DNA from: Vicingus serpentipes
GTDB taxonomy: Bacteria; Bacteroidota; Bacteroidia; Flavobacteriales_E; Vicingaceae
DNA: 64,000 nucleotides
Direction: 5' to 3'
Assembly: GCF_007993035.1 (NCBI RefSeq)
Contig: NZ_VOOS01000004.1
Coordinates: 186,001 to 250,000 of the forward strand
Shown: one piece after another, positions 9,505-52,300 of the stretch
Numbering within the stretch: position 1 is the stretch's first letter
Layout: each line of letters opens with the position of its first letter
The notes under the pieces: model-generated
Databases searched by the model: none
Seen by the model: the letters and a program-made list of their open reading frames with translations, nothing else
What the model was told of the DNA's origin: nothing
Program-made: the position numbers and the translations under genes

Positions 9505-12500
9505 TTGAAGTTAATAGCTTGCATATTTTTCCTTTTTTTATGTCAATTTACATTGGCACAAAATACCTATTTATCGTTTACCGAAAATAAAGGACAATGG
9601 AACAATAACGTACAGTATAGAGCTAAACTGCCTGCAGGAGATTTATTTTTAGAATCAAATAAATTAACATATCAGTTTTATAGAGAAACTGATTTAGAAA
9701 GAATTGATGACCTACACCATGGAACACTAGTGAACCCTTCAAAAGAAGATTCAATAATTAATTTACATGCTTTTAATGTAACATTTGTAAATTCATTAGT
9801 TCCAAAATTAACAGCAACCAAACCATTATCAACCTACGAAAACTATTATTTAGGTAACGATAAAAATAAATGGGCTAGTAATGTAAAGAAATATCAAGAA
9901 GTAGAGTATCGAGAACTTTATAAAGGAATTAACTTAAAGTTTTACCAAAGCAACAACACGCTTAAATACGACTTTATTATAGCTCCAAATAAAGATGTAA
10001 CTCAAATAAAACTTAAATATAAAGGAGCTGAAAGTACAACTATCAAGGATGGTCACTTATACATTAAAACATCAGTAAACACCTTAATCGAAAATAAACC
10101 TTTTGCTTATCAAAAAATTAATGGAACAAAAAAAGAGGTTCCGTGTAATTATGTATTAAAAAACAACACTCTCTCATTTGAGTTTCCAAAAGGATATGAT
10201 AAAAACTTCACTTTAATAATTGACCCTGCGCTAATCTTTGCTTCATATTCTGGAGCAGAAGTTGGAAATTGGGGTTTTACATCTACTTATGATGAAACTG
10301 GCCATTTGTATGGGGCAGGTGTAGTGTTTGGTGTGGGTTACCCAGTAACAACAGGAGCTTTGCAGTTGTTTTTTAATGGTGGTTCAAGAGATGCTTCTAT
10401 CTCTAAATTTTCACCAGACGGAACTACACTAATTTACTCCACCTACCTAGGTGGTATTGGAGAAGATAATCCTCATAGTTTAATTGTAGATAATAATGAT
10501 AATTTAGTTGTTTTTGGTACAACTGCATCTCCTAACTTTCCAGTATATTCAACAGCATATGACGATACCTTAAATGGTACTTATGATATTTTTGTTTCAA
10601 AAATTAGTAGTGATGGAACCGCTTTATTAGGCTCATCATTTATTGGCGGTAGTGGTATTGATGGCTTAAACAAAGGGAACCCTTTAAAATACAATTATGC
10701 TGATGATTATAGAGGAGAGGTTGTCGTAGATGAAAACAACAATATTTTTGTTGCTAGCACGACCCTTTCAACTGATTTTCCAACAACGGCTGGTGTGATT
10801 AAACCTAACTTTATAAGCGGAGACAATGGACAAAATGCTTGTGTTTTTAAATTAAATCCTTCTCTTGATTCGCTCATATGGTCAACTTATTTTGGTGGAA
10901 ACATGGATGATGCTGCTTATTCTCTTCAGTTTGATAAAATAGGGAATATTCTTTTTACTGGCGGCACAAAAAGTTGGGATTTGCCTACATCTGCTAGCGC
11001 TATAAATCCAATTCTTGGTGGTATAATGGATGGTTATATTGTTAAAATGACTTCTGATGCCACCTCGCTAATAGCTTGTACTTACATAGGAACTGAAGAA
11101 TTAGATCAAACCTATTTTGTTCAGCTGGATACAGCTGATAATATTTATGTTGTTGGTCAAACTGAGGGAGTTTACCCAATAACTCCTGCAACAGTTTATA
11201 ACGATAGTAATAGCGGCCAGTTTATCCATAAATTAACACCTGATTTATCTTCAACTGTTTTTTCAACTACATTTGGAACAAGTTCAGGGGAAGTTGACAT
11301 CTCTTTATCTGCATTTTTAGTCAATAATTGTAATTATATTCTAATCTCTGGATGGGGAGGATCTTTAAATGCAACTTATGCTCTAGCAGATTACAGTACT
11401 ACTAATGGGTTGCCTATCACTCCAAATGCAGTTCAAAATACAACTGATGGTAACGATTATTATTTAGCTATGTTTAGTGAAGATGCTAACCAATTATTAA
11501 TGGGCACTTTTTTTGGTGGCTCAGACAGTAGAGAGCATGTTGATGGTGGAACTAGTCGTTTTGATAAAAAGGGAATAGTATATCAAGCTGTTTGCGCAGG
11601 TTGCTTTGGAAACAACGATTTTCCGACCACTCCAGGTGCTTACTCAAACATAAATGGAACATCCTTACCTGGGATTAGCTCTCAATGTAATTTAGGTGTA
11701 TTCAAAATAAACTTAACTAAGCTAACTGTTGATGCAGAAGTATATACCACTCCCTATTATTGTGTTGGTGATACAGTGCATTTTCAAAACTTAAGTATTG
11801 GTGGGTATAATTATTACTGGGAATTCGATGATGGCAATTCATCTACAGAATTTGAGCCATTCCATGTATTTGACTCCGCCGGAACTTATCATGTTATGCT
11901 TACTTCTATAGATTCTATTGCTTGTATATTAACCGATTCCGATTACGTTGATATATATATTTCTCCTCCCCCAACAGCTTCTATTACACCAGTTGTTGGT
12001 GTTTGTAAAGGTGATAGTATAGAATTAAATGCTACCGGAGGTGAGTTTTATTATTGGTTATCATCCTATCACATTTCCGACTCATTAATCGAAAATCCTA
12101 TCGTTTGGCCCGATACATCAACCACTTACACTGTTGTTGTTGGAGACTCTTGCGGTATTGATACTGCTTCTATTTTCATCGAAATTTTAAATCCATCAGG
12201 AAGTATAATTCCTGACACCAGTATTTGTAGAGGTGACTCTATAGAAATAGAGGCTTTTTATGGTAAATATTATTTATGGTCTCCTGATTCCACATTAAGT
12301 TTAAACGATATTTCCAACCCTATTGCATCACCTTATTATACAACAAATTATAATGTTAGCATCACTGATTTAAATAATTGTGTGAAAGATACATTCATGA
12401 CCCTTTATGTAGATACTTTATTGCCTCAAGCAGTTGCATCAAACGATACAAGTTTGTGCTTTGGACAAGAAGTAGAGTTATATGTAGATGGAGGGCAAAA

Positions 12501-13383
12501 CTATAACTGGAGTCCTTCAAGCTCACTAAACAACCCATCTTTTTCAAACCCCATAGCAAGCCCAACAAACACAACGTTATATACAGTTTCTTCATCAAAC
12601 GGATGTGGAATTGCTTATGACTCTGTTTTAGTATCAGTTCACCAAGTTATAGCTTCAATTGTAAGTGATTCAGCAGTATGCATTGGAGAAACTGTTAGCC
12701 TTTGGGCTTCTGGAGGAGATTCCTATTTTTGGGAGCCTAGTTTTTTATTTTCAAACCCAACATACGCTTCAGTAAATACAAACCTCTTTTTACCAACATT
12801 ATTTAGTGTAGAGGTTTTTAAAAATATTAACTCTTCATTAATCTGTTCTCTTTCTTTGTCTGTATTTATGGACACACTTCCTTTACCTTATGTAGAATTA
12901 GGAAATGATATTAATACAAGTTGGGGGAACATAGTTACCTTATATCCTGAAACAAATGCTAATAATTATATTTGGTCTCCAAGTCAAGGATTAAGTTGTA
13001 TTAATTGCTTAAATCCAGAAGTAGATACAGAAGAAGTTAGCACCTATTCTTTAACGGTAACCTCTGATGAAGGGTGTATTAACACAGATACCATTACCAT
13101 TTCCTTCGATGGCGTCATTTATGTGCCAAACGCATTTACTCCAGATGGTGATGGGGTTAATGATGTTTTTTATGTTTATGGAAAAGATATTGTTGAGTTT
13201 GAGCTTTTGATTGTAGACCGTTGGGGGGAAGAATTGTTTTACACAAAAGATATAGATGAAGGTTGGGATGGCTACTACAGAGGAACTTTGTCAAAAGTCG
13301 AAACGTATGTCTGGAAAATTAAATATAAAGATATTCAAGGAAATCCAGGAGAACAAATAGGAACTGTTTCATTAATTCGTTAA
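9505..13383 (+). CDS. Large secreted beta-propeller/PKD protein with T9SS type B sorting domain
   Basis: A 1292-residue protein. It starts with a TTG; no ATG or GTG in frame gives the signal peptide MKLIACIFFLFLCQFTLAQ. After the signal, an ENKGQWNNNVQYRAKLPAG block of about 220 residues is followed by several SBBP-like propeller repeats (YSTYLGGIGEDNPHSL; WSTYFGGNMDDAAYSL). A PKD-like domain near 760-820 (YYWEFDDGNSSTEFEPFHVF) and several short Ig-like repeats with LCxGxxVxLxxxGG come next. It ends in a gliding-motility (CHU_C) type domain: VPNAFTPDGDGVNDVF to GTVSLIR. That domain directs export through the type IX system. Likely cell-surface or secreted, with adhesion as a possible role; the substrate is unknown. 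Confidence 0.87.
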   Translation: MKLIACIFFLFLCQFTLAQNTYLSFTENKGQWNNNVQYRAKLPAGDLFLESNKLTYQFYRETDLERIDDLHHGTLVNPSKEDSIINLHAFNVTFVNSLVPKLTATKPLSTYENYYLGNDKNKWASNVKKYQEVEYRELYKGINLKFYQSNNTLKYDFIIAPNKDVTQIKLKYKGAESTTIKDGHLYIKTSVNTLIENKPFAYQKINGTKKEVPCNYVLKNNTLSFEFPKGYDKNFTLIIDPALIFASYSGAEVGNWGFTSTYDETGHLYGAGVVFGVGYPVTTGALQLFFNGGSRDASISKFSPDGTTLIYSTYLGGIGEDNPHSLIVDNNDNLVVFGTTASPNFPVYSTAYDDTLNGTYDIFVSKISSDGTALLGSSFIGGSGIDGLNKGNPLKYNYADDYRGEVVVDENNNIFVASTTLSTDFPTTAGVIKPNFISGDNGQNACVFKLNPSLDSLIWSTYFGGNMDDAAYSLQFDKIGNILFTGGTKSWDLPTSASAINPILGGIMDGYIVKMTSDATSLIACTYIGTEELDQTYFVQLDTADNIYVVGQTEGVYPITPATVYNDSNSGQFIHKLTPDLSSTVFSTTFGTSSGEVDISLSAFLVNNCNYILISGWGGSLNATYALADYSTTNGLPITPNAVQNTTDGNDYYLAMFSEDANQLLMGTFFGGSDSREHVDGGTSRFDKKGIVYQAVCAGCFGNNDFPTTPGAYSNINGTSLPGISSQCNLGVFKINLTKLTVDAEVYTTPYYCVGDTVHFQNLSIGGYNYYWEFDDGNSSTEFEPFHVFDSAGTYHVMLTSIDSIACILTDSDYVDIYISPPPTASITPVVGVCKGDSIELNATGGEFYYWLSSYHISDSLIENPIVWPDTSTTYTVVVGDSCGIDTASIFIEILNPSGSIIPDTSICRGDSIEIEAFYGKYYLWSPDSTLSLNDISNPIASPYYTTNYNVSITDLNNCVKDTFMTLYVDTLLPQAVASNDTSLCFGQEVELYVDGGQNYNWSPSSSLNNPSFSNPIASPTNTTLYTVSSSNGCGIAYDSVLVSVHQVIASIVSDSAVCIGETVSLWASGGDSYFWEPSFLFSNPTYASVNTNLFLPTLFSVEVFKNINSSLICSLSLSVFMDTLPLPYVELGNDINTSWGNIVTLYPETNANNYIWSPSQGLSCINCLNPEVDTEEVSTYSLTVTSDEGCINTDTITISFDGVIYVPNAFTPDGDGVNDVFYVYGKDIVEFELLIVDRWGEELFYTKDIDEGWDGYYRGTLSKVETYVWKIKYKDIQGNPGEQIGTVSLIR

Positions 13384-35206: not shown

Positions 35207-35222
35207 TTATGTGTTAAAATTG

Positions 35223-35594
35223 ATGAAATATAGTTTTGTTTATTTAGCAGCATTTATAATGTTGCTACACAATTTTATTCCTCACTCTCACAAAAGTGAG
35301 CTAAGCAACTCTGAACATCAGCAAATACATCAAACAGAATCTTCTTCTCCAATTGATTTGTTGGCACTTGTTTTTCATGAGTTTACAGAAGATGGAGAAA
35401 TGGAAGAGGTTTTACCAAACACAAACACCGCGTTTGCTGCAACATTTTTTTTGTTTCCTATTATTACTAATTCGTATAATTTTTCTCTAGAAATTGAAAG
35501 CGAGTTACTTCAACACCCTTTACCTAAAGATGAGCGACTTCAATTTGCTGGTTTTTTACCTACTCAAAGCGTTCGCCCACCCCCTTCTGCTTAA
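35223..35594 (+). CDS. Small His-rich secreted or membrane-anchored protein before czcA
   Basis: 123 residues from the ATG at 35223. The first 20 residues are hydrophobic (MKYSFVYLAAFIMLL), either a signal peptide or anchor. Right after it is a histidine-rich stretch, HNFIPHSHKSELSNSEHQQIH, with six histidines in 21 residues. It ends with a proline-rich VRPPPSA tail. Short proteins of this shape are often seen ahead of CzcA/CusA genes in Bacteroidota. The histidines and position suggest a periplasmic metal-binding or metal-sensing role (inference). The gene is 58 bp before czcA and probably in the same operon. Confidence 0.65.
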   Translation: MKYSFVYLAAFIMLLHNFIPHSHKSELSNSEHQQIHQTESSSPIDLLALVFHEFTEDGEMEEVLPNTNTAFAATFFLFPIITNSYNFSLEIESELLQHPLPKDERLQFAGFLPTQSVRPPPSA

Positions 35595-35652: not shown

Positions 35653-38600
35653 ATGTTTGAAAAAATAATTGCTTATTCATTAAAGAATAAGTTAATAGTG
35701 CTACTTCTAATTATAGCACTTATACTTGGCGGAATATTTTCTTTAAAAAATATTGCTGTTGATGCTGTTCCTGACATCACCAATAATCAGGTTCAAGTAG
35801 TAACCTCTTCTGCAACATTGCCAGCTGAAGAAGTTGAAAAGTTTATCACCTTTCCTGTAGAAATGGCTGTTGCCAACATTCCAAATGTAACTGAGGTTAG
35901 AAGTATTTCAAGATATGGACTATCCGTAGTTACCATTGTATTTGAAGACAATGTTGACATCATGAAAGCCCGTCAATTTGTTGCAGAACAATTAACCATC
36001 GCTAGAGAAGAAATTCCTACAGCGTTTGGAACACCTCAAATGATGCCAATTACAACTGGTCTTGGAGAAATCTATCAGTATGTATTACAAGTAAAGCCTG
36101 GCTATGAAGCACAATTCGATATTATGAAAGTAAGAACCATACAAGATTGGATTGTAAAACGACAATTAACAGGGTTAAAAGGAATAATAGAGGTAAGTAG
36201 TTTTGGCGGTTTAGTAAAACAATACGAGGTTAGTGTTAACCCTCTTCAACTTATGGCCTACAACATTACTATTAATGATGTTGAACGAGCTTTAACTGTC
36301 AACAACAACAATAGTGGCGGCAGTTATATTGAAAAAAATGACCAAGCGTTTTATATAAGAACCGAAGGACGAGCAGAAACATTTAGTGACATTGAAAATA
36401 TTACCATTAAAAACGAAGGTTCACCAATAAGAATAAAGGATGTTGCAGTAGTTAAGCTAGGCAGCCCTAAACGATATGGGGCAATGACAATAGATGGAAA
36501 AGGTGAAGTTGTTGGAGGAATTACTTTAATGTTAAAAGGAGCTAACTCTTCGGAAGCTGTAGACAATGTGCATGAACGAATGGAACTAGTAAAAAAATCT
36601 TTGCCTGAAGGGCTTGAGATTTACCCTTATTTGGATCGTTCTGTTTTGGTTGGAAAAACAATTAACACTGTAGTTAAAAACTTAATAGAAGGAGGGTTAA
36701 TCGTAATTTTTGTTTTAGTGCTTTTCTTAGGAAATTTCAGGGCAGGACTTATTGTTTCTTCTGTTATTCCATTATCTATGCTGTTTGCTTTAATTCTAAT
36801 GAATTTATTAGGTGTTTCAGCAAACTTAATGTCTTTAGGAGCTATAGATTTTGGAATTGTTGTTGATGGAGCAGTAATTATTGTTGAGGGGGTTTTACAT
36901 ATTCTTCATAAAAAACACAAAGGAACAACCCTTACCAAACTTCAAATGAATAACGAAATAAGAGATGCTAGTGGGCAAATTTATAATACTGCAGCTTTTG
37001 GTGTCTTAATCATTTTAGTTGTGTTTGTTCCTATTTTTACTTTAGAGGGAATTGAAGGTAAAACCTTTTTGCCAATGGCTCAAACCGTAAGTTTTGCCAT
37101 TTTAGGCTCACTTATTCTATCAGTAACATATGTTCCTGTAGCGGCTGCTTTGTTTTTAAAGAAAAAAATAAGCGACAAAATAACTTTTGCCGACAAAATT
37201 GTAATGGCATTGCAAAAACGTTATTTACCTAGCTTAAAATATGCGTTAAATAATCCTAAAAAAATACTTGTAATGGCTGTTTCTGGGTTAGTTGTTTCAT
37301 TTTTTATCTTTTCAAGAATGGGTTCTGAGTTTATACCTACACTAGAAGAAGGTGATTTAGCAATGCAAATGGCGGTAGAACCAGGAAGTTCTTTGGAAAA
37401 AAGCATTGCAACCTCAACTAAAGCTGAGAAAATTTTAAAAGATAATTTTTCTGAAGTAAAACATGTTGTCTCGAAAATAGGAACAGCAGAGGTTCCAACT
37501 GACCCAATGGCCATAGAAGATGCAGATATTATGATTATTCTAAAAGAAAAAGGCGAGTGGGAAAATGCTGAAACAAGAGAGGAATTAATCGATTTAATGA
37601 AAGAGAAGTTAGCTGTTATTAAAGACGCTTCTTTTGAATTTACACAACCTATTCAACTTCGTTTTAATGAGTTAATGACAGGGGCTAAAACAGATATTGC
37701 CATCCAAATTTTTGGAGAAGATGTTAAGCTTTTAAAAACATTAGCTGATAACACCGCAAAAGAAATTCAAAATATAAATGGTGTTGGTGATGTAAAAGTT
37801 GAACAAACAGACGGGTTAAAACAGCTTAGTGTTATTCTAGATAGAAAAAAGCTATCATTAAATCAAGTAAATGTTGATGATGTAAACAACACAATTAAAT
37901 CAGCATATGCAGGGTCTACTGTAGGCTCTATTTATGAAAACGAACGAAGTTTTGATTTAGTTGTTAGATTAAATCAAAAAAGCATACGGTCATTATCCCT
38001 AAACGGATTATTTGTTAATGACATAAATGGACATCCTGTTTCTTTAGACCAAGTTGCTAGCATAAAAGAAACTATTGCTCCAATGCAAATTTCTAGAGAG
38101 GATGCCAAAAGAAGAATATCTGTTGGTGTAAATGTGCGTGACAGAGATATTGCTTCTTTAGTTGAAGAAATACAATCAAAAATTAAAAGCAATGTTACCC
38201 TTCCTCCTGGTTATACGGTAAAATACGGAGGGCAGTTTGAAAACTTACAAAATGCTTTAAAACGACTGAAAATTGTTGTTCCTGTTGCTTTATTTCTAAT
38301 ACTATTTTTACTTTACATTGCTTTCAATTCAATAAAAGAATCTCTCATCATTTTTATGGCTGTTCCTCTTGCCTCTATTGGTGGTATTTTAGCGTTATGG
38401 CTAAGAGATTTGCCTTTTAGTATATCAGCAGGGATAGGTTTTATAGCCTTATTTGGTGTAGCTGTTTTAAATGGAATTGTATTAGTAAATGAGTTTATCC
38501 GATTAAAACAACTAAACACCTATCCAAACATGAAAGATTTAATTTTAGCTGGAGCAAACACTCGTTTACGACCTGTTTTAATGACCGCTCTTGTTGCCTC

Positions 38601-39948
38601 TTTGGGATTTTTACCTATGGCTTTAGCAACTTCTAACGGAGCAGAAGTTCAAAGACCTTTAGCAACAGTTGTTATTGGCGGACTAATAACATCAACACTA
38701 CTTACATTGCTAGTTTTACCTGCTTTGTATTTTTTATTCCACACGTTTAAAAACGGTACTAAAAAACCCTCAATAATAGGAGCTGTTGTTACTATTGGCT
38801 TTGTATTGTCTTCAATTAATGTTGGAGCACAAAACAAAGTTGGTTTGTCAGAATTAATTGTTGCTGCAAAACAAAACCAACTAGAAGTAAAAATGGTTGA
38901 AATTGAAAAACAACAATGGGAAAATGAAAAGAAAAACGCTTACGTTTTAAACCCGCTTCAAATTGGATTGCAATATGGACAAATTAGTGATAATAATACC
39001 GATATGTTTTGGGATGTAATGCAGGATTTTGGAAGGCCATGGAGTATAAAAACAAATAAAAATTATGCTCAATTAGGGGTTGATTATGCAAAACAAAAAA
39101 GCAAAACAATTCATCAAGAAGTTGAGTATAATATAACGTCTACTTATTATGGGTGGTTATTTTATAAAAATGCTTACCAGCAATTGCTCCAAATAAACGA
39201 AGCTTTAAATGCGACGCTAAAACACGCCCAACAAATGTTTGATGCTGGAGAAATTAACACCACCGATTTGTTGTTAATTAAACAGATTCAAAATAGTGTT
39301 TTACAAAAAACAAGCGGATTTTTTAACAAAGAAAAAACAAGCGAAGCAAATCTTATTTATTTGTCTGGCTTAAACCAAGCCGTTATAAAAGATACCGCTT
39401 ATACTGTATTGCCTTATGAAAAAAACCAAGAATTAAGCACAAACTTATATCAAGAAAATGATTTATTAATTCAACAATTAACACAAAAAGAAAAGGTGAT
39501 AAAAGCAAGTTATTCTCCTTCTTTTCAGTTGGGCTATTTTAATCAATCTATTTCAACAAACAAAGGTTTTCAGGGCGTACAAGGGGGATTATCTATCCCG
39601 TTGTTTTTTGCGGGGAAAAAAAATCAACTACAAACAAATCGCTTACAAACTGATATTGTAACCCAAAAACAAAACAATCTAAAAAATCAACTTAAAAGCG
39701 AGTTGATTAGTTTGGAAAAAACTATTGCTTTACTTGAAGGTTCTGTTTCTAATCAAAATAGAACAGACAATATTTCTGCAAAAGGGTTAAAGCAATTACA
39801 AGAAAAATTAAGTTTAGGAGAAATCAGTTTTATCGATTTTTTGAAGTTAAGCTCAATAATTATTGACGGAACAATTGGCGAACTAGAATTATTAAACAAC
39901 TACAATCAAGCAGTTATAAAATACAATTATTTAACAACTAACTTTTAA
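35653..39948 (+). CDS. czcA: CzcA/CusA-type heavy-metal RND pump fused to a TolC-like outer membrane factor
   Basis: A 1431-residue fusion. Residues 1 to about 1030 are a complete heavy-metal-efflux RND transporter. It has 12 membrane segments, DFGIVVDGAVIIVEG (proton-relay signature in TM4), porter loops, and ANTRLRPVLMTALVASLGFLPMAL near the end. Residues 1061-1431 are a TolC/CusC-like outer membrane factor with long coiled-coil helices (AKQNQLEVKMVEIEKQQ; LLIKQIQNSVLQ) and beta-strand blocks (FQLGYFNQSIS; GGLSIPLFFAGKKNQLQ). Between them, residues 1037-1060 look like an internal signal peptide (KKPS, then IIGAVVTIGFVLSSINVGAQ). The metal could be copper/silver or cobalt/zinc/cadmium. The partner adaptor follows. 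Confidence 0.93.
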   Translation: MFEKIIAYSLKNKLIVLLLIIALILGGIFSLKNIAVDAVPDITNNQVQVVTSSATLPAEEVEKFITFPVEMAVANIPNVTEVRSISRYGLSVVTIVFEDNVDIMKARQFVAEQLTIAREEIPTAFGTPQMMPITTGLGEIYQYVLQVKPGYEAQFDIMKVRTIQDWIVKRQLTGLKGIIEVSSFGGLVKQYEVSVNPLQLMAYNITINDVERALTVNNNNSGGSYIEKNDQAFYIRTEGRAETFSDIENITIKNEGSPIRIKDVAVVKLGSPKRYGAMTIDGKGEVVGGITLMLKGANSSEAVDNVHERMELVKKSLPEGLEIYPYLDRSVLVGKTINTVVKNLIEGGLIVIFVLVLFLGNFRAGLIVSSVIPLSMLFALILMNLLGVSANLMSLGAIDFGIVVDGAVIIVEGVLHILHKKHKGTTLTKLQMNNEIRDASGQIYNTAAFGVLIILVVFVPIFTLEGIEGKTFLPMAQTVSFAILGSLILSVTYVPVAAALFLKKKISDKITFADKIVMALQKRYLPSLKYALNNPKKILVMAVSGLVVSFFIFSRMGSEFIPTLEEGDLAMQMAVEPGSSLEKSIATSTKAEKILKDNFSEVKHVVSKIGTAEVPTDPMAIEDADIMIILKEKGEWENAETREELIDLMKEKLAVIKDASFEFTQPIQLRFNELMTGAKTDIAIQIFGEDVKLLKTLADNTAKEIQNINGVGDVKVEQTDGLKQLSVILDRKKLSLNQVNVDDVNNTIKSAYAGSTVGSIYENERSFDLVVRLNQKSIRSLSLNGLFVNDINGHPVSLDQVASIKETIAPMQISREDAKRRISVGVNVRDRDIASLVEEIQSKIKSNVTLPPGYTVKYGGQFENLQNALKRLKIVVPVALFLILFLLYIAFNSIKESLIIFMAVPLASIGGILALWLRDLPFSISAGIGFIALFGVAVLNGIVLVNEFIRLKQLNTYPNMKDLILAGANTRLRPVLMTALVASLGFLPMALATSNGAEVQRPLATVVIGGLITSTLLTLLVLPALYFLFHTFKNGTKKPSIIGAVVTIGFVLSSINVGAQNKVGLSELIVAAKQNQLEVKMVEIEKQQWENEKKNAYVLNPLQIGLQYGQISDNNTDMFWDVMQDFGRPWSIKTNKNYAQLGVDYAKQKSKTIHQEVEYNITSTYYGWLFYKNAYQQLLQINEALNATLKHAQQMFDAGEINTTDLLLIKQIQNSVLQKTSGFFNKEKTSEANLIYLSGLNQAVIKDTAYTVLPYEKNQELSTNLYQENDLLIQQLTQKEKVIKASYSPSFQLGYFNQSISTNKGFQGVQGGLSIPLFFAGKKNQLQTNRLQTDIVTQKQNNLKNQLKSELISLEKTIALLEGSVSNQNRTDNISAKGLKQLQEKLSLGEISFIDFLKLSSIIIDGTIGELELLNNYNQAVIKYNYLTTNF

Positions 39949-40033: not shown

Positions 40034-40894
40034 ATGAAAAATATAATTTTATATAGTATTGTTTTAGCAAGTTTCACTGCTTGTAACGAAACTAAAAAAG
40101 CAGAAAATATAACTGAAGAAGAAACTACAACTTTAATTGAAGAGACTGTTAAAACAGAAAAAAATTCTCCTATTAATCAAAATATCGAATGTTTTGGTGT
40201 TGTCGATGTTCCTCCTTTTGCTGTTCATGAAATTTTCGCAAAAACCTCTGGTTACATCTTAGATTTAACCATTTTAGAAGGACAACATGTAAAAAAAGGA
40301 GAGGTAATTGCCGAAATTGAGTCTCCTGATTTTGCTAACTTACAAAAAGAATATAAATCGGCTAAAGCTACTTTCGATTGGCATGAACAAAACTTTAAAC
40401 GAAATGAAAAGCTTTATGAAAGCAATGCTATTGCTGATAAAGATTTTCAGCTTATCGAAAAAGAATATAAAATTGCCAAAGCCAATTATATTGGCCTTAA
40501 AGAAGAAATAAAATCTATTGGTTTTGATGAAAATGCCATTTTAAACACTAATGATGTTCGCCTAAAAATTAGAAGCAAAACTAGCGGAACTATTGTTAAA
40601 ATTAATGTTAAAAACGGTTCAATGGTATCTCCTCAAATGCATCTGTTCACATTGCTAGATAAAGCTCATCTTCATGTTGAAATGAGTGTTGCTGCGGCCA
40701 ATATTACAAACGTAAAAGCCGAACAACCTTTCTTCATTATGAACGGAAACGACAGTATCGCAGGCACGGTTCATTTAATTAACGAAATGATTGAAGAAGA
40801 TAATACTGTAAAAGTGCATGGCCACTTTAACAACGTAGAAGACGAAGAAAAGTTAATTGTTGGGCAAAAAGTTTTTGTAAATATTGTGCAGTAA
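40034..40894 (+). CDS. czcB: RND efflux periplasmic adaptor lipoprotein
   Basis: A 286-residue membrane fusion protein. The lipobox is SFTAC (cysteine near residue 17), so it is a lipoprotein. After an acidic linker come the biotinyl-lipoyl halves (GYILDLTILEGQHVKKGEVIAEIESP and SKTSGTIVKINVKNGSMV), separated by a short alpha-helical hairpin (residues about 95-165), and a beta-barrel domain. It bridges the CzcA pump and the outer membrane factor. The short hairpin and the absence of a metal-binding N-terminal domain are noted. The gene follows czcA by 85 bp. Confidence 0.9.
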   Translation: MKNIILYSIVLASFTACNETKKAENITEEETTTLIEETVKTEKNSPINQNIECFGVVDVPPFAVHEIFAKTSGYILDLTILEGQHVKKGEVIAEIESPDFANLQKEYKSAKATFDWHEQNFKRNEKLYESNAIADKDFQLIEKEYKIAKANYIGLKEEIKSIGFDENAILNTNDVRLKIRSKTSGTIVKINVKNGSMVSPQMHLFTLLDKAHLHVEMSVAAANITNVKAEQPFFIMNGNDSIAGTVHLINEMIEEDNTVKVHGHFNNVEDEEKLIVGQKVFVNIVQ

Positions 40895-48388: not shown

Positions 48389-51300
48389 TTATACTTGTTT
48401 AAATTTTATTGTATATGTTGTTCCTTTTGTGCTTTTCATTTCAATCGTTCCATCAATTTGTTCAACCAGTGTTGTTACTAATTGAAGTCCTAGAGAGTTT
48501 GTTTCTCTAAAATTTATGTCTTTAGGAAATCCTACTCCATTATCAGAAACCGTAAGAACAATATTTTTTCTATTAAGAGACAAATTTATCCTTATTTTTC
48601 CTTCTTTCCTTCCTTCAAACGCATATTTTAATGCATTAGAAACCAATTCATTAATTATCAACCCGCACGGAATAGATGTGTCTAGATTTAAAGAAACATC
48701 TTCAATTTGATGTGTTAAGTCGATAAACTTATCTAAAGAACTGTATGAATGTACTAAATTTTTAGACAAACTTACAACATATTCCGAAAAATTTATTTTA
48801 GAAAAGTCATTTGTCTGGTATAAACTTTCGTGTATAATAGACATTGATTTTATTCTGTCTTGACTTTCTTTTAGTATTGAAAGTGTTTTTTTATCATCAA
48901 TATATGATGATTGAAGGTTTAAAATGCTAGAAATAACCTGCAGGTTATTTTTTACCCTGTGATGAACCTCTTTAAGCAGAATTTCTTTTTCTTTTAAAGA
49001 GTCTTTCAACTGTTCTTCTGCTAATGTTTTTTCTGTAATGTCATGAGCAATTCCCGAAACCTGTGTTACTTTGTTGTTTTCATCAAATATAGGATTCAAA
49101 AAAATGTTTCTAATTATTCTGTTTCCCTTTAAGTTTGTTTTTGATGTTGTAAACTCTACTTGTTTGCCAGAAAATGCTTGTTTATATTGTTCGTCCCAAA
49201 AAGAATAAACATCCTTTTTAGCTTCTTGAGGTCGCATTTTTAGCTCTTGATTTATTTTTAATTCTTTACCGTATAAGTCAAAAATGGCATCAGAATAGTT
49301 TTTATTATATGTTGTTATTCCTTTGTTTTCTTCATATATCCAAAACAAATGAGAGCTGCTTTCAATTATCGATCTTAATTTTGAACTTTGGTCAAAAAGC
49401 ATTTGCTCATCATACTTTTTCTGAACAGCTAATGCTAATGCTCCTGAAATAAAATCTAATATTTCAAGAGATTGATCGTCAAATTGATTTTCATTTTTAT
49501 ATGATTGTACAGATAATACACCTACTACTTTGTTTTTTGTTTTTAATGGAATTCCGATAAATACTTTACATTTAGGCCCTAAAACTTCATATTTTCCATC
49601 TTCAATAATCTTATCTAATTCTTTTCTTTTTAAAAGTTTACTTTTCTTTTCTTTTAAAAAATATTCATTTATTCCTTTCTTTCTTTTCCTGTCCTCTTTA
49701 TAAATTCTTCCCCCTCTTTCAATATCATAATAATAAGGAAACGAAATAGATTCATCGTTAATTGCATAAGAAATAACAAAAACATCAGTATTTAACACCT
49801 TTCCTAATTCTATTCTTATGGCTTCATATAGTTCTTCAGCATTAGTTTTCTCAGCAATTATTTTTGAAATATTATTATAAACAGTTTGTCTTTTATTTGC
49901 TTTCTTTTCTTCTGTTACATTTCTAAGTATTGCTCTTGTAGATATAGGTTTTCCTTTATTATCAAATTTGCAACTAATATCTCCCTCTACTGTTATTTTT
50001 TCTCCCTTATTTGTTTTTAAATCAAATGTTTTTCTAACTGATTTTACCGTATTATTTTTAATAATTTCTTTAAAAAATATATTACAAGAATCAACACTAT
50101 CTTCGTGAATGAAATCAAAAATATTTTTGTTATATATTTCTTTTTGATTGTATCCTAATGTTTTTAACCAAGATTTATTTACATATACAATATTACCTTC
50201 TACATCTATGCTTTGAATTAAATCCGTAGCATTTTCAAATATATCTCTATATCTTTCTTCACTTTCTATTAGTTGTTGCTCTGCAAGTTTTATATCTGTT
50301 ATATCTCGAGAAACACCCATTGCTCCTTTGGGTTTCTTATTTTCATCTAATAAAACAGAAGCTGAAAGAAATGAAGTAAACTCCTCACCTCTTTTGTTAA
50401 CATTTATAATTTCACCTGTAAAAAATCCTTGCTTTTTTAGTTCATTTTCTACTCTTAAAAGAGTGTCTAAATTTTTATAAAGTATGCTAATAGGTTTATT
50501 TAAAACTTCTTCTTTTTTATATTCAAAAGCACGTTCTGCAGCTTTATTAAATTCTTTTATATTTCTATTTTCATCTGTAGCAACAATAATATCTAATGAA
50601 CTATAAATAATATTATTTGTATAGTTCTGATTTATTAATAATTGTTTCTCTACTCTTTTCCTTTCTTCAATTTCTTTTTGAAGTATTTTGTTTGATTCCT
50701 CTGCTATTTGTGTTTTAAGCCTTTCTATTGATAATTGCTTTTTATCAGATATATCTTGAAAAACAACCTGGATTGCTTTTTTACCTTCATAGTTAAAAAG
50801 CATTGATTTTGTTTCTAAATCAATTATTTCTCCTGTTAGTGGTTTTTTTACTCTTACTTCTTGAAAAATAACTTCTTCTCCGTTTAAAACCTGTTTTCTC
50901 CTTTGTAGGGCATTTTCATGATATTCCTCTAGTAAATAATTAAAAATATTTATTTTTTGATTAACTTGATTTATACTTTTTAAACCTAAAATTTCATAAG
51001 ATTTTGGGTTAGCATAAACTACATTTCCATCTATATGTATTAAATTACCATAAGGAGAATTTTCAATAAGATTTTTAAAATTTTCTTCGCTTTGTTTTAA
51101 TTGTTTTTCCTTTAATATTTGCTCTGTAATATCAATTAAAGTTCCTTCAATTCTATTTGTTTTTTTATCAGTAATAGAAACATTTGTTAATATCCAAATT
51201 TCTTCACCTTTCTTATTTTTATGTTTTAAAGTATAATTAGATAAAAATCCTTTTTTAGATAATTCTTTAATATAATTATCTCTATCCTTTTTTGAAAAAT

Positions 51301-52300
51301 ATAATAGTTCTGCTTTTTTACCTATTAAATCACTACTTTTTTCGTAACCAAAAATTTTAGCAAATGAATCATTACATTCTTTTATTAATCCTTTTTCTGT
51401 ATAAAAAACTCCTGCTAAATTATTTGTAAATATATTCTTATATAATTGTCTATTTTCTATTAATTTTTGTTGTTGCTCTTTTTCTCTAGTTACATTTCTT
51501 AAAACAGTTGTTGTTTCTACTATTTCTCCTTTTTCATTATATTTTGCATGAACAGTTTCATCTATCCATATATATTCTTTTTTACCTTTTGGTTTAAATC
51601 TAAAAACAGAATTTATGTATGTTTTTCTTTTTTTATATAATCCTTCTGAAATGTTTTTATCTATTTTTTTTATATCATCAGGATGAATTCTACTTGATAA
51701 TTTACCTGTATTACCTAGCTCGTTAAATTCTTCAATTGAATAACCTAATAATTCTTTTATTTGAGGGCTTATGTAAGTTAGTGTTTTATTTTTTTCAGAA
51801 AACTTTACATTATAAATACATTCATCAATATTTTCTAATAAAAATGAAAGCTGATTTTCTTTTTCTTTTTTTTCAGATATATCTCTAGCGGTACCAAATA
51901 ATCCTTTTTGAGTTCCATCATTATTATATAAAGTATTGATAGACTCTTCTATCCAAACATATTTTTCTTTTATTTTATTATAAAAACGATATGTAATTGA
52001 CCATTCTTTGGTTTCTTTATTTAAACTTTTTACTTTCTCCTTTATAAATTCTATTTCCTCTGGATGAAAATATTCAAAAAGCTTATTTTGATTTTTTATA
52101 TAATTTTCAACTGATAATCCAAATACATTTATTACTTGTGGACTTATATAATCTAATATTTTTTTTCCTTTTTCATCAAAAGAAATTTTATAAAACATTT
52201 CACTAACATTATCCATTAATAAAGATAAATTAGCTTCTTTGCTTTTAAGGTTTTCTATTTCCTTAATTAACTCTTCTTTTGATTTTTTTGAGTAATCCAC
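48389..52300 (-). CDS. Soluble multi-PAS/GAF sensor histidine kinase (HisKA_2 type)
   Basis: A 1303-residue kinase without visible signal peptide or membrane segments. Six PAS domains with PAC tails run from about 20 to 800 (for example YISPQVINVFGLS, YISPQIKELLGYS, YANPKSYEILGLK, YVNKSWLKTLGYN). A GAF domain (about 810-965) and a seventh PAS (about 975-1095) follow. The dimerisation/phosphotransfer part is EVHHRVKNNLQVISSILNLQ (His1113/His1114; HWE/HisKA_2 type). The ATPase has NELVSNALKYAF and SDNGVGFPKD. It should phosphorylate the LytTR regulator three bases downstream. The signal is probably cytoplasmic, such as a redox, heme or small-molecule cue; none can be named. Confidence 0.93.
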   Translation of the reverse strand: MDYSKKSKEELIKEIENLKSKEANLSLLMDNVSEMFYKISFDEKGKKILDYISPQVINVFGLSVENYIKNQNKLFEYFHPEEIEFIKEKVKSLNKETKEWSITYRFYNKIKEKYVWIEESINTLYNNDGTQKGLFGTARDISEKKEKENQLSFLLENIDECIYNVKFSEKNKTLTYISPQIKELLGYSIEEFNELGNTGKLSSRIHPDDIKKIDKNISEGLYKKRKTYINSVFRFKPKGKKEYIWIDETVHAKYNEKGEIVETTTVLRNVTREKEQQQKLIENRQLYKNIFTNNLAGVFYTEKGLIKECNDSFAKIFGYEKSSDLIGKKAELLYFSKKDRDNYIKELSKKGFLSNYTLKHKNKKGEEIWILTNVSITDKKTNRIEGTLIDITEQILKEKQLKQSEENFKNLIENSPYGNLIHIDGNVVYANPKSYEILGLKSINQVNQKINIFNYLLEEYHENALQRRKQVLNGEEVIFQEVRVKKPLTGEIIDLETKSMLFNYEGKKAIQVVFQDISDKKQLSIERLKTQIAEESNKILQKEIEERKRVEKQLLINQNYTNNIIYSSLDIIVATDENRNIKEFNKAAERAFEYKKEEVLNKPISILYKNLDTLLRVENELKKQGFFTGEIINVNKRGEEFTSFLSASVLLDENKKPKGAMGVSRDITDIKLAEQQLIESEERYRDIFENATDLIQSIDVEGNIVYVNKSWLKTLGYNQKEIYNKNIFDFIHEDSVDSCNIFFKEIIKNNTVKSVRKTFDLKTNKGEKITVEGDISCKFDNKGKPISTRAILRNVTEEKKANKRQTVYNNISKIIAEKTNAEELYEAIRIELGKVLNTDVFVISYAINDESISFPYYYDIERGGRIYKEDRKRKKGINEYFLKEKKSKLLKRKELDKIIEDGKYEVLGPKCKVFIGIPLKTKNKVVGVLSVQSYKNENQFDDQSLEILDFISGALALAVQKKYDEQMLFDQSSKLRSIIESSSHLFWIYEENKGITTYNKNYSDAIFDLYGKELKINQELKMRPQEAKKDVYSFWDEQYKQAFSGKQVEFTTSKTNLKGNRIIRNIFLNPIFDENNKVTQVSGIAHDITEKTLAEEQLKDSLKEKEILLKEVHHRVKNNLQVISSILNLQSSYIDDKKTLSILKESQDRIKSMSIIHESLYQTNDFSKINFSEYVVSLSKNLVHSYSSLDKFIDLTHQIEDVSLNLDTSIPCGLIINELVSNALKYAFEGRKEGKIRINLSLNRKNIVLTVSDNGVGFPKDINFRETNSLGLQLVTTLVEQIDGTIEMKSTKGTTYTIKFKQV

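Follow-up and report, generated by a model that had tools for sequence, protein, structure and literature searches.

A heavy-metal-type pump and a TolC-type channel joined through a predicted internal signal peptide in Vicingus serpentipes and other Bacteroidota

One frame encoding a pump, a junction, and a channel

The stretch of Vicingus serpentipes DNA analyzed here (64,000 nucleotides, positions 186,001 to 250,000 of contig NZ_VOOS01000004.1; hereafter the window) harbors a gene in which a resistance-nodulation-division (RND) efflux pump and a TolC-like outer membrane channel are encoded as one chain. The gene, located at 35653-39948 on the forward strand, is a single uninterrupted frame of 1,431 amino acids. 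Residues 5-1030 matched the Pfam family ACR_tran (PF00873; E 6e-272, 905.3 bits against a cut-off of 28), the CusA/CzcA model TIGR00914 spanned residues 1-1037 (1,132.8 bits against a cut-off of 701.45), and the C-terminal part matched OEP (PF02321) from residue 1065 (E 1.1e-13, 57.9 bits against a cut-off of 22). The initial annotation, made from the letters of the window, had proposed a CzcA-type pump ending near residue 1030 and fused to a TolC-like domain, and the single frame together with the extents of these matches confirmed that arrangement. The parts of the gene, with the evidence for each in parentheses, are as follows.

35653..38742, forward strand: RND pump domain of CusA/CzcA type, residues 1-1030 (PF00873, TIGR00914; ZneA and CusA as nearest structures)
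38743..38772, forward strand: linker and n-region, residues 1031-1040, with K1033, K1037, and K1038, predicted to be cytoplasmic (codon table; at least two lysines or arginines in every fused linker)
38773..38817, forward strand: h-region of the predicted internal signal peptide, residues ~1041-1055 (hydropathy; low-confidence stretch of the structural model)
38818..38829, forward strand: c-region N-V-G-A, residues 1056-1059, with a predicted signal peptidase I cut after A1059 (-3/-1 rule)
38830..38832, forward strand: Q1060 (codon CAA), where the mature channel is predicted to begin (Q-rule)
38830..39948, forward strand: predicted mature outer membrane factor of TolC/CusC type, residues 1060-1431 and the stop codon (PF02321, profile, and fold)

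A simple hydropathy scan identified 12 hydrophobic segments in residues 1-1030, and the segment at the junction was additional to these. The closest solved pumps to the RND part were ZneA and CusA, whose alignments began at residue 1 and stopped at residues 1031 and 1033, respectively, so that the junction does not correspond to a further membrane helix of unfused pumps, the possibility that the initial annotation had held out against itself. Four proteins of the same genome matched PF00873 above its cut-off, namely the fused protein and three others, which were unfused and ended within ~40 residues of their last hydrophobic stretch.

The junction carries three lysines, then the hydrophobic stretch, and then N-V-G-A followed by Q, such that residues 1033-1060 combine a positive n-region, a hydrophobic core, agreement with the -3/-1 rule, and glutamine at +1. 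A cut between A1059 and Q1060 was predicted on the basis of the -3/-1 rule and the Bacteroidetes Q-rule, and the glutamine is therefore the first residue of the putative mature protein, not the last of the signal peptide. Thus, where residues 1037-1060 had initially been read as a signal peptide, the lysine pair, the hydrophobic core, and the cut-site motif were upheld, while the mature start moved one residue earlier, to Q1060. The position of the segment is unlike that of an ordinary signal peptide, in that it lies ~1,040 residues into the chain instead of at the N-terminus of the primary product. PMC5837995 states that most signal peptidase I substrates of Bacteroidetes expose glutamine at the new N-terminus, with predicted Q-values above 48% in 332 of 334 species and a mean of 71%, and PMC10653852 describes cyclization of the exposed N-terminal glutamine by glutaminyl cyclase.

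The channel part was characterized using a junction-plus-channel alignment of 29 sequences, for which 28 of 29 selected loci were used (L099 was omitted, its open reading frame reaching the contig end). PF02321 was present in 29/29 members, and a profile of the alignment matched SilC, OprM, CusC, and TolC. The alignment of the profile with the TolC precursor 5ng5_F started at residue 5 of that chain and hence presumably ran through the TolC signal peptide. An AlphaFold2 model of residues 859-1431 based on this alignment had a mean predicted local distance difference test (pLDDT) score of 83 and a predicted template modeling score of 0.59, with moderate confidence in the pump helices and higher confidence in the channel, while pLDDT fell below 50 at residues 1034-1048 and 1050-1059. 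Foldseek placed the TolC, SilC, and CusC structures first, with template modeling scores by target of ~0.62-0.73, followed by ZneA and CusA. As modeled, the channel part has a TolC fold, and its first helix starts five residues past Q1060.

Fused and split relatives across the Bacteroidota

This fusion occurs commonly in Bacteroidota. Of 296 sampled genomes of the phylum, 294 had a match at E ≤ 1e-50, a figure that counts pumps and not fusions. Among the best 30 loci of this search (L006-L035), 29 were fused and one (L017) had a stop codon between pump and channel, while 80 loci from named genomes comprised 64 fused and 10 unfused genes, five cut by a contig end, and one with a broken frame. 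Because both sets were found by similarity to the window protein, they favor fused genes. Fused genes were counted from stop-to-stop open reading frames; counting by open-frame length was dropped, the value for L129 and L134 spanning a stop codon. One row was removed before the counts (L001, the same gene as L006), and seven loci were excluded from the fused count, five of which ended at a contig end (L043, L045, L094, L105, and L135), one of which was cut inside the pump (L115), and one of which was frame-broken (L059). At the junctions of the five contig-end loci, the [AGS]Q motif was visible by eye.

The predicted cut site was a constant feature of the fused proteins. Between 3 residues before and 14 residues after the end of the junction core, [A/G/S]Q was present in all 93 fused proteins (59/59 after thinning at 85% RND identity) and was accompanied by a permitted -3 residue in 92 of them; following the RND membrane segments of the same proteins it occurred in 28 of 1,110 cases. 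A -3/-1 caller blind to the +1 position placed glutamine there in 74/93 junctions (48/59 thinned), versus 10/1,110 RND membrane segments. Furthermore, every one of the 93 linkers had a K/R count of at least two.

Relatives lacking the fusion provided a second line of evidence. We identified 35 pump open reading frames without a complete fused channel, of which 30 were truly unfused, the other five being fused genes truncated at a contig end. In 21 of the 30, a channel gene lay directly downstream of the pump gene, starting between 59 nt upstream and 249 nt downstream of where the pump stop codon ends and overlapping that stop by 4 nt in four cases (L110, L117, L122, and L125). The broken fused gene L059 was kept out of these 21 rows, which include one gene twice (L017 and L134) and one near-identical pair (L113/L114). 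The channel's own signal peptide was followed by [AGS]Q in 20/21 pairs, L125 being the exception. Since the downstream channel genes carry a signal peptide with this motif, what forms the junction in the fused state is, in the split state, the signal peptide at the N-terminus of the channel; this is the outcome of the comparison with unfused homologues that the initial annotation had proposed.

In two unfused loci, L129 and L134 (genomes G206 and G257), the pump and channel lie in the same frame with only one TAA between them, which is followed by an ATG at a distance of 21 and 15 nt, respectively; judged from their sequences, these are intermediates between the fused and split states. The frame-broken locus L059 (3270-5205 and downstream) appeared to be a fused gene with a frame change inside the pump, possibly an assembly error.

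We reconstructed a pump-domain tree from 32 fused and 26 unfused representatives, with fused rows thinned at 72% identity and L017, L103, L106, and L114 omitted. The tree required 10 changes between the fused and unfused states, at least seven of which were forced by starred branches, while shuffled labels required 19.1 on average and as few as 10 in 0/500 shuffles. These counts do not distinguish fusion from fission. Pump and channel distances were correlated (Mantel r = 0.77, n = 49, 0/999 permutations as high, permutation maximum 0.21), with coefficients of 0.69 when fused proteins were paired with unfused ones and 0.47 within the fused set. Because the distances correlate despite the state changes, the channel has for the most part been passed on together with its pump, even as the boundary between the genes came and went. 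The combination of correlated inheritance and state switching supports the idea that fused and split genes would yield the same two products.

Probable processing of the fused chain

We consider it very probable that the fused gene encodes a polyprotein that is cut by signal peptidase I, releasing the channel, and that pump and channel are thereby made 1:1. The initial annotation had suggested such a cut and a fixed synthesis ratio, and the comparisons support that suggestion. The involvement of signal peptidase I in particular is strongly implied by the Q-rule site together with the repeated switching between fused and split genes, although, as for the other steps, this is a reading of sequences. 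Under this scheme, the ribosome would make a 12-helix pump with a cytoplasmic C-terminus, and a short lysine-bearing loop would then lead into a thirteenth hydrophobic segment acting as the signal peptide that exports the rest of the chain to the periplasm. Signal peptidase I would cut between A1059 and Q1060, glutaminyl cyclase would convert the N-terminal glutamine of the freed channel to pyroglutamate, and the channel would reach the outer membrane and trimerize. The spent signal peptide would stay on the pump, at least initially and unless trimmed, as a possible C-terminal thirteenth helix. Pump and channel, in equal amounts, would then join a separately encoded adaptor in a tripartite efflux system, putatively for metals. 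Equal synthesis suits the 3:3 assembly of pump and channel, trimer on trimer, and the adaptor is needed in about twice the number of either.

The genome encodes candidates for both enzymes. Matches to the signal peptidase I family (PF10502) were present, as were five to the M28 family, one of which was a 334-amino-acid protein with a lipoprotein-like start. The best solved relative of the latter was the glutamine cyclotransferase 6qro (E 7.8e-109), and it is a glutaminyl cyclase homologue.

Several observations weigh against this interpretation or reduce what can be drawn from the data. The caller blind to +1 gave a residue other than glutamine there in 19/93 junctions, and its -3/-1 weights were set by hand. 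The 93 fused proteins share common ancestry and were collected by similarity to the window protein. Composition alone yields [AGS]Q in ~40% of 17-residue windows. When the residues within each junction window were shuffled, the motif arose in 37.5 of 93 on average and in no more than 50, so composition accounts for part of the signal and not all of it. Sequence identity was 0.18 in the h-region, 0.22-0.23 in the channel, and 0.73 in helix 12, and because the channel is about as low as the h-region, the latter value is little informative beyond its contrast with helix 12; low conservation of the junction, which we had considered as proof of a signal peptide, was weakened accordingly. The conservation value for the c-region is not meaningful because MAFFT left the glutamine column unaligned. 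The tree was a quick reconstruction in which the starred branches should be trusted less, and two of its rows were of odd composition. Finally, the channel gene was upstream of the pump in four distant unfused relatives (L130-L133), and no channel open reading frame was found in the DNA examined around 5/30 unfused pumps (L080, L112, L121, L123, and L127).

One alternative, which we regard as highly unlikely, is that the whole chain is kept, with the junction serving as a true thirteenth membrane helix (a signal anchor) and the channel working while tethered to the pump. The junction segment is sufficiently hydrophobic for a membrane span (mean core hydropathy of 2.80 across the 93 proteins), and topology permits a thirteenth helix whose end is periplasmic, but a cut site with glutamine at +1 in every fused protein would then serve no purpose, and the repeated switching to split genes indicates that the link is apparently not needed. 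The geometry is also unfavorable. Helix H1 of OprM is placed in the equatorial ring, at mid-height of the ~100 Å periplasmic domain (PMC8277102). Because H1 lies midway along that domain, a chain that remained uncut and fixed in the inner membrane would have difficulty positioning the first channel helix, which begins so soon after the predicted site.

It is likewise very improbable that the channel is also translated separately from an internal start near the junction, with the fused product minor or degraded. Split relatives do begin the channel at that place, and between helix 12 and the core an ATG was present in 42/93 fused genes and an ATG, GTG, or TTG in 62/93. However, the remaining 31/93 had none of these codons there, on which ground we rejected an internal start as the general mechanism, and the window gene itself had none in frame at residues 1027-1051, its TTG codons falling at 1019 and 1025, inside helix 12, and at 1052 and 1065. 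A related idea, that a methionine in the linker is a relic of the old gene start, was also set aside, as the number of proteins having one (45/93) was judged informally to be near the expectation from methionine frequency. That another protease makes the cut, such as a periplasmic enzyme acting in the loop beyond the helix, and that the resemblance to a signal peptide is a disused relic of a split ancestor, is scarcely credible: the fused form probably arose from neighboring genes, so such a relic is expected at first, but it would decay, while the site was kept throughout the thinned set despite variable surroundings.

Gene neighborhood, known systems, and implications

Two genes on the same strand flank the fused gene in the window.

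35211..35594, forward strand: small protein rich in histidine, immediately upstream, with a hydrophobic stretch in its N-terminal part (seven other loci have a homologue upstream of the pump)
40034..40894, forward strand: separate periplasmic adaptor of CzcB/CusB type (PF16576, TIGR01730)

Of the 90 fused loci for which enough sequence was available, 80 had an adaptor no more than 1.5 kb downstream; an adaptor was fused to the pump-channel chain in 0/93 fused proteins. The small His-rich protein had no Pfam or NCBIfam match and is a possible member of the operon; its homologues were in L036-L039, L042, L044, and L110, with an RPPP motif near the C-terminus in 5/7. Elsewhere in the window, we noted two very long open reading frames, at 9505-13383 on the forward strand (1,292 amino acids) and at 48389-52300 on the reverse strand (1,303 amino acids).

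Relatives were also present on plasmids. Of 72,556 plasmid records, 3,227 matched the query and 32 of these covered at least 80% of it, all 32 being named for genera that we take to belong to Bacteroidota. The annotation was 'CusA/CzcA family heavy metal efflux RND transporter' in 27 of the 32 and 'heavy metal efflux pump, CzcA family' in one, and the other four had no annotation. On the Runella slithyformis plasmid pRUNSL02 (L145), which is typed as conjugative, two P-type ATPase genes flank a 4.3-kb pump gene, which an adaptor gene follows. This copy is a full-length relative of the fused gene, and the form may move between Bacteroidota. In Bacteroides thetaiotaomicron, a table of PMC10434189 lists an adaptor and a CusA/CzcA pump in BT_3968-3972, and no TolC-family gene; going by that listing, the operon is a candidate place to look for a hidden fused channel, in a species that is well studied.

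The system resembles the heavy-metal RND tripartite efflux systems (Czc, Cus, Sil, and Zne) in its CusA/CzcA-type pump, in its channel with matches to SilC, CusC, OprM, and TolC, and in the adaptor gene that follows. Pump and channel occupy separate genes in those classical systems, whereas here they share one frame with an internal signal peptide between them. A closer parallel in the manner of expression is FbcH of Bradyrhizobium japonicum, the cytochrome b/c1 precursor, a single chain that comprises a polytopic membrane protein together with its exported partner and is cleaved at a signal peptide within it; our search returned no paper on its processing. Both FbcH products stay in the inner membrane, whereas the part freed here would belong in the outer membrane, and here the fusion or fission has been recurrent. 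With respect to Q-rule substrates as described in the accessible portions of PMC5837995 and PMC10653852, the junction is alike in its small -1 residue, permitted -3 residue, and glutamine at +1, as is the genome in having a glutaminyl cyclase homologue, but it is unlike them in being internal and following 12 membrane segments, and those portions make no mention of internal signal peptides among such substrates.

The component families are already known, and the fused proteins stand in public records under a name that omits the channel. We found no description of an RND-TolC fusion in the literature searched, subscription journals lying mostly outside it. The transporter label cited above conceals the channel in many genomes of Bacteroidota, so that it will be scored as missing when tripartite pumps are surveyed.

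A broader scenario, speculative and in our estimation rather unlikely, is that Bacteroidota repeatedly convert a pump-channel pair into a processed polyprotein and back, with the uncut channel kept beside its own pump, signal peptidase I timing tripartite assembly, and the spent signal peptide becoming a working thirteenth helix that unfused pumps lack. If the processing that we favor is right, signal peptidase I would act on a signal peptide deep within the chain of a 12-helix membrane protein. The junction thus represents a natural experiment, repeated about 10 times, on how the ratio of pump to channel is fixed, either through neighboring or overlapping genes or through one chain that would be cut.

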